A DNA stretch of 64,000 bases from the NCBI RefSeq assembly GCF_003688405.1, contig NZ_REFC01000015.1, positions 186,001 to 250,000 on the forward strand. The letters run 5' to 3'. Origin of the DNA: Ulvibacter antarcticus. Its GTDB lineage: Bacteria; Bacteroidota; Bacteroidia; Flavobacteriales; Flavobacteriaceae. The position numbers and the translations under genes are program-made. Shown in pieces: positions 93-28,911 of the stretch; the stretch's first letter is position 1; each line of letters opens with the position of its first letter. The notes beneath the pieces were generated by a model. That model saw only the letters and a program-made list of their open reading frames with translations. It was not told the DNA's origin and searched no databases.

Positions 93-1748
93 TTAACGCT
101 CTACCACAATCTTTTTAGTAATACTCGATTTGGATTCGTCGTCGACCAGATATAAGAAGTATACTCCTTCTGCGAAACTTTCGACTGAAATAGTATTCAT
201 AGTGTTGGACACTGAACCATCCATCAATTTTTGACCTACAAGATTAAATAAACTATATGAAAGATGAGGATACCTACTGTTAATCACTGTGATCTCTGTA
301 GAAGCCGGATTAGGATATATTTCCAGTTTTCCGATTTCATCAAACTCTTGCGTGTTAAGTATATTCTGCAATGTTCCTAAAGTGGTTTGCCCAGAATTTA
401 TTGGATCTAACCAATCCCGCAATCTTGTTTCGGGTGTTACTCCCGCATTCCATGATACGCCAAACCTTCCGTAGATATCATAATCATTATTATTTTCAAG
501 TCCGTCACAAAACGACTGCCCAGCATATAACTGACCAATAATTCTTCCATTTTGATCGAACAAGGGTGAACCTGAAGATCCACTTTCGGTCGTTCCTATT
601 TCCCAACCATCACCACTTCCAACAGATACTCCACCAATAAGCCATACTTCTGTACCATTCGCATTATCCTTTACAGCTCCTGAATCATCTCTGCAAATCT
701 TCATTATATCTCCATTTGGATGATGTATCCCAACTTCGAATTCTGGATTTGTATCCGTATGATCCCATCCGCCAAAAGAAATATCCCACGAAGATGGTAT
801 ATCATTATTCATAACAACCAGCGCAAAATCACTTAATTCATTATTCGCAAGTAGCGTTGAACCACTCATAGTGAAATTGCTCTGTAGATCCGCACTTGGT
901 TCCCCAGTAGCGCATTCCGGACTTGGGCTCATCCAATTAAAACGAACCGTCCACAATGACGGATCACTATTATCAAGACAGTGATTTGCAGTTAAAAGAA
1001 AAGGTGTTTTATCCTGATTTGTATTATTAACAAGTGCAGCCGAACATAAATAGCCATTACCTAGTGTGAGCAGCGCAACTGTTTTTTTGACGATATCTTT
1101 CTTAGAGTCGAAGTCATCTCCAATAGGACAATTTACATCATAATTGCAAGCCCCCGCATCGTTCATTCCTTTTTGTCCACCCACCAAATCCTGTACTCTA
1201 CCCAATCGATAACCATGAATAATGCTTCCAATTTGCAAACTGGCGCTCGCTGTAACATACTCGGGTTCAAAATACTCGATATAGATTAAATCACCGTTAA
1301 TATACCAGGATCCAATGTTACTGGAAACACTATTTTGAGCGTGTGAGAAAATTCTGGACACATCACTTCTATCGGCATTGTACATTTGCAGCCTGGCGCC
1401 TTCCGGTAAGTTGAAATCCTCAAAGTTGATACTTATGTTAATAGCCTCGGGTGATTTCACTGCGACTCTCCAAATACGACCTATATTCGGGATCTCAGAC
1501 CATTCGCCTGAAGTATTAAGATTGAACACAATTGGGCGTTCAATTCCATATCTCCATGGAAGACTTTTGTCCAAATCATTGATACTATCTTCGCGTATAA
1601 TAGCTTCTAGCTCTAAAGGAGGTAATTCTATAGGGGCAACATTCCTATTTAGTTGTGTATTCCAGCTCATAGGAGATTCCTCTCTATTCTGTGCGATACA
1701 GACGAGACCGGCAAAAAACAATATTGAAAAAAGTAATTTTATTTTCAT
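93..1748 (-). CDS. Secreted trypsin-like serine peptidase (lysyl-endopeptidase type) with T9SS sorting domain
   Basis: Exported peptidase of 551 residues. Residues 1-20 are a signal peptide ending in IAQ. The catalytic triad is visible as His256 (LLTANHCLDN), Asp307 (LSDFALVV) and Ser392 (ESGSSGSPLF), the arrangement seen in Achromobacter/Lysobacter lysyl endopeptidases; several cysteines (for example C235, C257, C352, C414) could form disulfides. Residues from about 473 form a type A C-terminal sorting domain (KLEIYPNPAS ... YFLYLVDD ... KKIVVER), the tag recognised by type IX secretion, so the product should cross the outer membrane or be attached to the surface. It stands alone, downstream of queA and separated from it by a terminator. 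Lys specificity is a family suggestion only; the specificity pocket was not verified. Confidence 0.88.
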   Translation of the reverse strand: MKIKLLFSILFFAGLVCIAQNREESPMSWNTQLNRNVAPIELPPLELEAIIREDSINDLDKSLPWRYGIERPIVFNLNTSGEWSEIPNIGRIWRVAVKSPEAINISINFEDFNLPEGARLQMYNADRSDVSRIFSHAQNSVSSNIGSWYINGDLIYIEYFEPEYVTASASLQIGSIIHGYRLGRVQDLVGGQKGMNDAGACNYDVNCPIGDDFDSKKDIVKKTVALLTLGNGYLCSAALVNNTNQDKTPFLLTANHCLDNSDPSLWTVRFNWMSPSPECATGEPSADLQSNFTMSGSTLLANNELSDFALVVMNNDIPSSWDISFGGWDHTDTNPEFEVGIHHPNGDIMKICRDDSGAVKDNANGTEVWLIGGVSVGSGDGWEIGTTESGSSGSPLFDQNGRIIGQLYAGQSFCDGLENNNDYDIYGRFGVSWNAGVTPETRLRDWLDPINSGQTTLGTLQNILNTQEFDEIGKLEIYPNPASTEITVINSRYPHLSYSLFNLVGQKLMDGSVSNTMNTISVESFAEGVYFLYLVDDESKSSITKKIVVER

Positions 1749-10481: not shown

Positions 10482-11564
10482 TCAAGAACTGATAACCCTT
10501 TTCTGATGATTGATCGATTCCTGGTGAATGGCTTTATAAATTCGAAGCATAAATTCTTCACTTAATTGATTCTCTTCTCCTTCCAAAATCATTTTACCAA
10601 GAATTTCATTCCATCGCTTATTTTGAAGTATGGCAACGTTGTTTCTCTTCTTTAAACTACCAATAGAATCGGCTATCTTCATTCGTTTACCCATCATTTC
10701 AACCAATTTATTGTCGATCACATCTATCTGAGTTCTCAACGTATTCAGTTCATTTTTATAAACGGCGGTATCGTCTTCTGCTTTTCTAATTCGAAGATCA
10801 ACGGTAATCTGGTCAAGAGTCTTTGGTGTAATTTGCTGATTGGCATCACTCCATGCATTATCGGGATCGAAATGAGTTTCGACCATTAAGCCATCATAAT
10901 TAAGATCTAAAGCTGTTTGACAAAGATCAAAAATAATATCTCTTCTCCCAGCAATATGCGAAGGGTCCAAAATAAGAGGAAGGTCTGGAAAGCGACTTTG
11001 AAGATCGATAGGGATCTGCCATTCGGGATTATTACGGTATTTGGTCTTTTCATAGGTCGAAAAACCACGATGAATAACTCCTAGATTTTTCACATTAGCT
11101 GTGTAAAAACGTTCTACAGCTCCTAACCATAAAGAAAGATCTGGGTTTACAGGATTCTTAATCAATACAGTTTTATCTGTTCCTTTAAGCGCTTCTGCAA
11201 TTTCCTGAACAATAAATGGGGAAACCGTAGTACGTGCACCAATCCACAAAATATCCACATCGTGTTTTAATGCAAGATCTACATGATTGGCATTCGCAAC
11301 TTCAGTGGTAGTTAATAAGCCTGTTTCTTCTTTTGCTTTCTGAAGCCACTTTAATCCTAAGGCACCCACTCCCTCAAAATTTCCCGGACGGGTTCTTGGC
11401 TTCCATATTCCGGCTCTCAACACCGTAGTGTCGGTTTCCTTTAACTGATGCGCTATTTTTAAAACTTGCTCTTCGGTTTCGGCACTACACGGACCTGCAA
11501 TTACCAAAGGATGATCCAATCCAAAAGCGTCTAGCCAGGATCTAAGATTTTTATTGTTTTCCAT
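10482..11564 (-). CDS. Bifunctional DAHP synthase / chorismate mutase
   Basis: Fusion of a type I (KDO8P-like) 3-deoxy-7-phosphoheptulonate synthase (about residues 1-260; GPCSAE at 24-29, RAGIWKPRTRPG around 50-61, DPSHIAGRR) with an AroQ-type chorismate mutase (about 265-355; ELNTLRTQIDVIDNKLVEMM). It catalyses the first shikimate step and chorismate to prephenate. The mutase domain may also serve as the allosteric sensor, as in Bacillus-type fusions. Its start overlaps the 3' end of pheA by 14 bases, so both are expressed from the attenuated pheA leader. No aminotransferase or prephenate dehydrogenase gene lies between them. Confidence 0.95.
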   Translation of the reverse strand: MENNKNLRSWLDAFGLDHPLVIAGPCSAETEEQVLKIAHQLKETDTTVLRAGIWKPRTRPGNFEGVGALGLKWLQKAKEETGLLTTTEVANANHVDLALKHDVDILWIGARTTVSPFIVQEIAEALKGTDKTVLIKNPVNPDLSLWLGAVERFYTANVKNLGVIHRGFSTYEKTKYRNNPEWQIPIDLQSRFPDLPLILDPSHIAGRRDIIFDLCQTALDLNYDGLMVETHFDPDNAWSDANQQITPKTLDQITVDLRIRKAEDDTAVYKNELNTLRTQIDVIDNKLVEMMGKRMKIADSIGSLKKRNNVAILQNKRWNEILGKMILEGEENQLSEEFMLRIYKAIHQESINHQKRVISS

Positions 11565-12420
11565 CTACTGTTTCTTTTATAATTGTGCTAGGTTCGTTTT
11601 CAACATTATGCTTGTAAACACCAAGTATTTTAAGCTCTGTTACTGTTTTTTTAAGTAAATCAACTACTTCTGCAAAACGTGAATAATCTTCGAATAATAC
11701 GTCTACAAAAAACGCATATTGCCAAGGTTTCCCCACGATAGGAAGCGACTGAATTTTCGTTAAATTAATGGAAAATGCTGCAAAACATTGCAGAATATTT
11801 GACAAGCTTCCTGCCGAATGTTCCAGTTCAAATTTTAAAGTTGCCTTATTCACATTTTCATCCGGTACTCTAACCTCTTTTCCAATCAACACAAAGCGCG
11901 TCTGATTGTCACTCATGTTCTGAATATTACTATCGAGAATCTTCAATCCGAATTTTTCTGCTACTTGTTTTCCGGCAATAGCTGCTACTCCTTTCAAATT
12001 TTGCTCTTTTATTGCTTTAGCTTCGGAAGCAGTATCCTTCCCTTCAATTATCTTTAGTTGAGGCGGTAGTTTCCGAAGATAATCCTTGCATTGTAGTAAT
12101 GCTACAGGATGAGAATGTACTTCTTCTATATCATAAATAGATTGTCCTTCCAATGCCATTATGTACATCTGAATATTTAAAAACACCTCATCATAAATAA
12201 CAAGACCGCTGGCATCTATAAGATTATAATTAGGCAAAATGGAACCTGCTATGGTATTCTCAATAGCCAGCACACCAAAATCCGCGCTATAATTTTCAAT
12301 GCTTTCGGTTACCTGCTCGAAGGTATCACACATAACTAATTCTACATCGGTGTCGGGAAACAACAAACGTGTTGCCATGTCGTGAAATGAACTTTCTATT
12401 CCCTGGATCGCAATCTTCAT
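11551..12420 (-). CDS. pheA: Prephenate dehydratase
   Basis: Converts prephenate to phenylpyruvate for phenylalanine synthesis. 289 aa: a periplasmic-binding-fold catalytic region (1-180) with the TRF motif at 174-176 (DNQTRFVLIG), then a C-terminal ACT domain (about 194-275). In the ACT domain the usual Phe-binding motifs are altered (SAGSLSNIL for GAL, IQSLP for ESRP), so feedback by Phe may differ from E. coli. There is no fused chorismate mutase; that domain is in the next gene. It is preceded by a leader-peptide attenuator (12444-12570). Confidence 0.95.
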   Translation of the reverse strand: MKIAIQGIESSFHDMATRLLFPDTDVELVMCDTFEQVTESIENYSADFGVLAIENTIAGSILPNYNLIDASGLVIYDEVFLNIQMYIMALEGQSIYDIEEVHSHPVALLQCKDYLRKLPPQLKIIEGKDTASEAKAIKEQNLKGVAAIAGKQVAEKFGLKILDSNIQNMSDNQTRFVLIGKEVRVPDENVNKATLKFELEHSAGSLSNILQCFAAFSINLTKIQSLPIVGKPWQYAFFVDVLFEDYSRFAEVVDLLKKTVTELKILGVYKHNVENEPSTIIKETVDGKQ

Positions 12421-12443: not shown

Positions 12444-12476
12444 AAAAAAAAAGTCCCGGTTAAAAACCGGGACTTT
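12444..12476 (-). terminator. Attenuator terminator in the pheA leader
   Basis: Perfect 12-bp stem, AAAGTCCCGGTT (12450-12461) and AACCGGGACTTT (12465-12476), three-base loop, then a run of nine Ts on the minus strand (12452 down to 12444), two of them in the stem. It sits 24 bases before the pheA ATG and after the leader peptide stop, so it would end transcription before pheA. Its 5' arm can instead pair with CCGGGA in the leader-peptide codons (plus-strand 12510-12515), forming an antiterminator. Confidence 0.88.
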
Positions 12477-12498
12477 ACAAATTAATATTTTTTATTAA

Positions 12499-12570
12499 TT
12501 ACATAACAATCCCGGGCTTTTCCATAAAATAGAAATACCAAAAATTGAAATATGTACTTAAATGTTTCAT
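12499..12570 (-). CDS. Aromatic amino-acid leader peptide (attenuation sensor)
   Basis: A 23-codon ORF with ATG at 12568-12570 and TAA at 12499-12501. It starts MKHLST, and residues 7-15 read Y-F-N-F-W-Y-F-Y-F: four Phe, three Tyr and one Trp in nine codons. It ends MEKPGIVM, whose Pro-Gly-Ile codons (CCC GGG ATT) carry the strand that can sequester the 5' arm of the downstream terminator. This is the classic pheL/trpL logic: stalling at aromatic codons when charged tRNA is scarce should favour the antiterminator and expression of pheA and DAHP synthase/chorismate mutase. No strong -7 box was found upstream. Confidence 0.9.
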   Translation of the reverse strand: MKHLSTYFNFWYFYFMEKPGIVM

Positions 12571-12725
12571 GTTTCGTTATGAATAGCTAAAGTAACCAAA
12601 ACTTTAGAACGACAAAATTTATTTTCAGTTTTTTTAATTTTATAAATAATTCAGTTCTAAAAATGTAAGCATGAATTCATGGTTTTTAAGACGGGTTTTA
12701 TAAAAGTTTTAGTCGCTATTTTATG

Positions 12726-28708: not shown

Positions 28709-28759
28709 ATGAAAAATGCTAAAAAGAATGAATATACAATTTGTGAAAATTGTTGTTTC

Positions 28760-28881
28760 GTTATCTATCGTCGGTAAATTACCGTTGTAGAATGTAGCAC
28801 CTTCTTGGTTCTGCATAGCTGCAAAATGACAAGGGTTGCTAAGGTTTCAAAGGGTCTAATCCCTCCACCTTTCTTGATAAC
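28760..28881 (-). ncRNA. SAM-I riboswitch (S-box)
   Basis: Minus-strand RNA with the S-box core: P1 GTTATC (28876-28881) closing with GATAAC (28760-28765), then AAGAAAGGTGGAGGGA, TTAGACCC, TTTGAAACCTTAGCAACC and AAGGTGCTACATTCTAC, corresponding to the conserved P2/kink-turn, J1/2, P3 and P4 segments. It precedes metY and a terminator hairpin. Binding of S-adenosylmethionine would switch off the metY-to-metF operon. Confidence 0.93.
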
Positions 28882-28911
28882 ACTTCAATAAAGTTTTGAA
28901 CTTTGTGAGCG

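Follow-up and report, generated by a model that had tools for sequence, protein, structure and literature searches.

An aromatic-rich leader peptide and a candidate transcription attenuator upstream of pheA in Flavobacteriaceae

Attenuators described for amino acid operons

The pheL leader peptide of Escherichia coli reads Phe, and single leaders that read several amino acids are found in the ilvGMEDA and thr attenuators. For the aroR-aroF attenuator of Corynebacterium glutamicum, the primary paper is reportedly that of Neshat in 2014. These systems were compared with a leader located upstream of pheA in a 64-kb stretch of the Ulvibacter antarcticus genome (the window, taken at its full length) and at the pheA loci of other Bacteroidota.

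As at this locus, the pheL-pheA system of E. coli has a short leader before prephenate dehydratase, control codons for the product and a terminator/antiterminator pair (PMC11802643, in the part on this system). By contrast, the Bacteroidota leader contained both Phe and Tyr codons in 98/98 Flavobacteriaceae leaders and all three aromatic amino acids in 57/98, and its operon adds a DAHP synthase-chorismate mutase fusion (DAHPS/CM). A sequence relation between the two leaders was not detected (Rfam Phe_leader, RF01859, 20.3 bits against a gathering threshold of 55). In C. glutamicum, the aroR leader, with Phe-Tyr-Phe, precedes the DAHP synthase gene or operon, aroF; it differs from the leader studied here in its shorter aromatic run, in the different phylum of its host and in that no Trp is reported for it in the corresponding part of the source (PMC11802643). 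The trpL-type attenuators share the switch logic of the pheA leader, but they are dedicated to Trp and carry repeated Trp codons, whereas at most one is present in the pheA leader. The multi-amino-acid attenuator operons ilvGMEDA and thr, named in a passage of PMC1183508, resemble the pheA leader in reading several amino acids, although these are branched-chain or Thr/Ile and not aromatic.

Within the family, a transcriptome study of Flavobacterium psychrophilum reported in 2021 a structured 5' element of pheA, conserved in other Flavobacteriaceae and without an Rfam match, as well as strong clues for leader-peptide attenuation before amino acid operons (PMC9723704, in its passage on such elements). 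This element is almost certainly the same as the leader studied here, and the pheA leader is therefore not wholly undescribed. The main text of that study, in the parts dealing with the element, does not analyze its peptide, codons, antiterminator or phylogeny. Beyond this passage, no description of a Phe/Tyr/Trp leader in Bacteroidota was found in the open-access literature, supplements aside, and the three-aromatic composition, the antiterminator, the breadth and the link with trp loss were not found described in the open-access literature searched. The first-pass annotation of the window had stated that no leader of this composition was known in Flavobacteria; in the literature searched this held for the composition, but the pheA 5' element as such was already in print (PMC9723704, same passage). 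The mechanism is classical, as in trpL and pheL, and a detailed description of the three-in-one aromatic form seems to be lacking.

Organization of the leader and its alternative stems

The order leader, terminator, pheA and DAHPS/CM was observed on the minus strand (Table 1), with an overlap of 14 bp between the two genes and with the leader ORF unannotated. The first-pass annotation had claimed a 23-codon ORF with Y-F-N-F-W-Y-F-Y-F at residues 7-15, a 12-bp terminator stem with a T-run, and pheA and DAHPS/CM downstream. The ORF was read directly on the minus strand, the terminator and its nine T were present, and the two genes, the only ones of the operon here, were confirmed by their Pfam matches. 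As in known attenuators, the biosynthetic operon is preceded by a short ORF whose control codons match the end products, a terminator lies between this leader and the first gene, and an antiterminator was found that is mutually exclusive with the terminator.

Table 1. Positions of the leader, its RNA elements, the candidate promoter and the two genes in the window.
Feature	Positions	Strand	Details
TTG, candidate -33 element	12613-12615	minus	18 nt before the -7 box; read from sequence, weak
TACTTTAG, candidate sigma-A -7 box	12587-12594	minus	16 nt before the leader ATG
Leader peptide ORF, MKHLSTYFNFWYFYFMEKPGIVM followed by stop	12499-12570	minus	ATG at 12570, TAA 12501-12499, 23 codons
Control codons TAT TTC AAT TTT TGG TAT TTC TAT TTT	12526-12552	minus	Y-F-N-F-W-Y-F-Y-F, residues 7-15
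Antiterminator hairpin	12467-12515	minus	49 nt; contains the leader stop codon
Segment 2 (CCGGGATT), antiterminator 5' strand	12508-12515	minus	within the peptide codons
Intrinsic terminator hairpin, AAAGTCCCGGTT-TTT-AACCGGGACTTT	12450-12476	minus	12 bp, -17.5 kcal/mol
Terminator T-run	12444-12452	minus	nine T; the first three pair with AAA of the 5' arm
pheA, prephenate dehydratase	11551-12420	minus	PF00800 (PDT), E 3.5e-51
DAHP synthase-chorismate mutase fusion	10482-11564	minus	PF00793 (DAHP_synth_1), E 8.4e-40; PF01817 (CM_2), E 1.8e-21

Of the ATG-started ORFs of 10-45 aa in the window, this leader alone had a stretch of 10 residues with 8 or more aromatics, and one other reached 7. No other convincing leader-terminator pair before a gene was obtained in a window scan with strict thresholds, in which a homopolymer-style codon score failed to rank even the pheA leader. 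Upstream of an ORF at 93-1748 (minus strand), a terminator-like hairpin was located about 100 nt before the start (1748), with no obvious leader peptide. Additionally, a SAM riboswitch (Rfam RF00162, 75.2 bits) was detected at 28758-28883 on the minus strand, upstream of a Cys/Met-metabolism PLP enzyme (28646-27354), and a B12-dependent methionine synthase at 23725-21038. Between 13654 and 18569 (minus strand), PagL-like proteins (372, 379 and 371 aa) alternate with DUF2807 proteins (250 and 254 aa); a Pfam search was run on one protein of each type, and the array looks like a tandem duplication.

A candidate promoter was also found. The sigma-A -7 consensus has been given as TAnnTTTG (PMC9723704, in the passage concerned), and a TAnnTT[T/A]G box lay in the 60 nt upstream of the leader ATG at 80/97 Flavobacteriaceae loci against 183/1940 shuffles, usually 15-20 nt away from the ATG. 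At 52/97 of the loci, a TTG was found when the spacing was loosely defined. In the window, the transcription start would be expected near 12582.

The first-pass annotation had also noted a CCGGGA segment complementary to the 5' arm of the terminator. This segment (12515-12510, codons 19-21) is indeed complementary to TCCCGG at 12472-12467, but its extent had been drawn too small, since the predicted pairing is a 49-nt hairpin with the stop codon inside. The antiterminator fold, 12515-12467, reached -17.7 kcal/mol (z -5.5, none of 200 shuffles as good) and is thus about as stable as the terminator (-17.7 vs -17.5 kcal/mol). In an alignment of 21 leaders, 93.7% of the cells of the helix between segment 2 and the terminator arm were paired, a value that dropped on sliding, and 11 cells had changes in both strands, where shuffles averaged 3.1 (0/500 as high). 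The terminator helix was paired in 97.2% of its cells, also with 11 doubly changed cells (shuffled mean 2.8). The same column changes were found in both stems: in one relative (L013), the three segments read CCAGGA, TCCTGG and CCAGGA. Moreover, the complementarity of each segment with its own arm averaged 17.5 against 13.0 with swapped arms (sd 0.36; maximum of 1000 permutations, 14.2). When 98 loci were folded over the region that begins at the last aromatic codon and ends at the terminator arm, the folds were better than those of shuffles, with a median z of -3.2 and values below -1 in 92 loci and above 0 in 3.

The inner part of the long antiterminator varied in sequence and its pairs were not conserved one by one. 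A control slid by one position gave a higher covariation score than the true antiterminator (0.113 vs 0.097). The whole long antiterminator was rejected as a single conserved structure; its outer part alone holds. For the 1:2 protector (pause) helix, 89.3% of the cells were paired against 87.5% in shuffles, and no covariation was detected.

Given the dimensions of a ribosome, one stalled on any control codon is expected to leave segment 2 accessible, and one that has reached the stop codon to cover it. The spacing at the locus would allow this: in the window, 10 nt separate segment 2 from the last aromatic codon (12528-12526). The same gap measured 9-11 nt in 64/94 loci (range 5-15), and it was kept though the peptides differ in length and sequence.

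The leader is very probably a ribosome-mediated transcription attenuator of the pheA-DAHPS/CM operon. In the proposed mechanism, the RNA polymerase would start about 12582 and transcribe the leader ORF with a ribosome behind it. With an ample supply of charged Phe-, Tyr- and Trp-tRNA, the ribosome would reach the stop codon within the antiterminator and cover segment 2 (12515-12508), so that the terminator at 12476-12450 could form and an RNA of about 140 nt would be released. If any of the three were short, the ribosome would stall among codons 7-15. In a stall at the last control codon, its front edge would lie about where segment 2 begins, which would leave segment 2 free to pair with the 5' arm of the terminator; the antiterminator would then form and the polymerase would read through into pheA.

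Conservation of the leader in Bacteroidota

A comparison of the pheA upstream regions of related Flavobacteriaceae had been set by the first-pass annotation as a test of its reading, and its outcome was favorable: the aromatic codons are conserved and the alternative stems covary. Leader and terminator were found in the same place in the 20 close relatives examined (L002-L021; L022, a partial match, was left outside this count). An aromatic leader, defined by at least 6 aromatics in 10 codons, was present at 98/102 Flavobacteriaceae pheA loci, with a terminator in 98/98 and a complementary segment 2 in 94/98; segment 2 was not found in the other 4, and one of the 4 loci lacking the leader is cut by a contig end. 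This set of 102 loci is non-random, as it includes 20 close relatives and 30 loci chosen partly for absent trp genes or for misses of R1, a covariance model. The 30 best R1 loci were left out of the count, since their selection had depended on the leader itself. Nine genomes fetched twice (L060-L063, L065-L067, L071 and L134) were represented by their second, longer locus.

PheA was found in 268/299 Flavobacteriaceae genomes, and R1 matched 272/299 at E <=0.1, where the weak matches may be plain terminators. Among the PheA-bearing genomes listed without an R1 match, 12/14 still have an aromatic leader. R1 was useful near the window, but since it missed leaders and its weak matches may be generic terminators, the counts were based on PheA loci. 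In the genome of the window, R1 gave one full match (1.4e-22), and the next was partial (0.0055).

The leader was also observed outside the family. In other families of the order it was found at 8/20 loci, with a terminator at 6/20 and segment 2 at 6/20; one of the eight (G455), without a terminator, is doubtful, and two more loci combined 5 aromatics in 10 codons with a terminator and a complement. In other orders or classes, the leader was present at 15/20 loci, the terminator at 12/20 and segment 2 at 11/20. These 15 leaders came from 11/15 loci of the same class and 4/5 from elsewhere in the phylum. In families f16 and f5, most of the sampled loci had no leader: it was not found at two loci of f16, from tiny genomes, nor at most of those of f5, where PheA shares only about 30% identity with the query.

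Amino acids probably sensed by the leader

The operon downstream of the leader differs between lineages. In 16/20 fetched 7-kb Flavobacteriaceae loci, the same leader was followed by pheA, an aminotransferase gene, tyrA and DAHPS/CM; in the clade of the window, pheA and DAHPS/CM alone remain. By domain search, PDH_N (TyrA) was not found in the genome of the window (G000) nor in 36/37 clade genomes tested, the exception being a marginal match of 27.9 bits. Biopterin_H was detected in the genome of the window, in a protein of about 615 aa that matched the profile in two pieces, and in 35/42 of all genomes tested. With no TyrA found and a Biopterin_H hydroxylase present, Tyr is probably made from Phe, and hence via PheA, by a hydroxylation that may be its sole source. 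The pheA operon would then serve Phe, Tyr and, through DAHPS, Trp. The reading of three amino acids would follow from this arrangement, since DAHPS feeds all three, PheA makes Phe, and Tyr probably derives from Phe.

The 98 leaders contained on average 5.3 Phe, 3.0 Tyr and 0.6 Trp codons, and the Trp codon was absent from 41, nearly all in trp+ genomes. In the clade of the window, comprising 38 PheA rows, a Trp codon was present in 33/33 trp+ (trpA-bearing) genomes and, at residues 5-17, in 0/4 genomes without trpA and full-length TrpE (G188, G167, L011 and L018). Two of these four rows are near-copies, and the absences represent three separate losses in lineages kept apart by supported branches. 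The Trp of the relatives is replaced by Arg in G188, with neighbors that are still aromatic, and by His in L011 and L018; G167, on a long branch, carries a Trp codon downstream of its aromatic run and was counted among the 57. Two other genomes (G232 and G251) were not counted as trp-minus, because TrpE is present although the trpA search had suggested loss. The genome of L017 lacks TrpE, and of its trpB/trpA only remnants with frame breaks, among them a trpA fragment, lie beside an intact trpG-like gene (L243), yet its leader keeps the Trp codon. Its trp operon is apparently in decay, and the codon would fit a recent decay, although L017 is formally a counterexample. The association gave a Fisher p of 1.5e-5 without L017 and 6.8e-5 with it (4/5 without the codon), in both cases uncorrected for kinship. 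All 10 PheA rows that were checked, the four trp-minus ones among them, kept the single Trp of this protein, so that Trp was not simply purged. Outside this clade, the comparison was discarded as uninformative: many trp+ genomes lack the Trp codon, and in family f9 both G306 (trp-minus) and G331 (trp+) are without it.

The gene trpE has a leader of its own. In the genome of the window, outside the window (L204, G000:C6, 121720), an uncalled leader, MITIITNSWWWNKLRRTS followed by stop, precedes a terminator at trpE, and WWW leaders were found before trpE at 17/18 loci, this one included; at the 18th, the assigned gene start is misplaced. Trp therefore has a second, separate sensor.

The best explanation of the codons is that the attenuator senses Phe and Tyr, and Trp where a Trp codon is present. 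It may also be that the same attenuator senses Phe (and Tyr) alone, the Trp codon being incidental and its loss a coincidence or a change of reduced genomes. The single Trp among nine codons, the 41 leaders without it, the separate trpE leader and the codon kept by L017 beside broken trp genes all agree with this alternative; the split of 33/33 against 0/4 with three separate losses, the Arg amid aromatic neighbors in G188 and the Trp retained in PheA argue against it and make it rather doubtful. The claim of the first-pass annotation that Trp charging is read along with Phe and Tyr was thus strengthened by the joint loss of codon and trp genes in three lineages and weakened by L017 and by the leaders without Trp. 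A Trp input is likely, with less certainty than the attenuator itself.

Detection of a free aromatic amino acid by the nascent peptide inside the ribosome tunnel, with stalling as in TnaC, would suit a hydrophobic aromatic peptide whose stop codon position is conserved in the close clade. Among relatives, however, it is the aromatic character alone that is conserved: residues interchange, F and Y freely, while the aromatic run is kept, and the peptide varies from about 17 to 29 residues. The gap to segment 2 counts from the last aromatic codon and the Trp codon is lost along with its pathway, as fits codon sensing; sensing in the tunnel is therefore very improbable. Slightly less credible still is a leader that works as a metabolite riboswitch, as a T-box or by binding a protein, with no important role for the ORF. 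The strong structure would suit it, but coding content is what persists across genera, and nothing rose above threshold in Rfam searches of the locus at the gathering score and at a permissive E-value (Trp_leader, RF00513, 25.7 bits against a gathering score of 41). Moreover, no T-box was matched at the gathering score in a scan of the whole window, where the SAM riboswitch was the sole match. That a chance AT-rich ORF precedes an ordinary terminator can be practically dismissed, for although T-rich sequence favors Phe codons and 40/510 shuffles reached at least 6 aromatics in 10 codons, 0/510 had a terminator in addition, against 98/102 real loci, and the stems covary.

On balance, it is probable that a three-aromatic attenuator is old in Bacteroidota and that its Trp codon is modular, kept while Trp is made and lost after the trp pathway. 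If this is true, the codons of one small peptide keep a record, species by species, of the branches of the chorismate pathway that are still in operation. The parallel disappearance of the Trp codon and the trp genes offers an uncommon natural test of whether a control codon in a leader is under selection for sensing its amino acid. The leader would explain the control of the entry into the aromatic pathway in these bacteria and provide a widespread and testable example for Bacteroidota, a phylum with few descriptions of attenuation by leader peptides. Similar leaders may account for many of the small ORFs left uncalled in these genomes.
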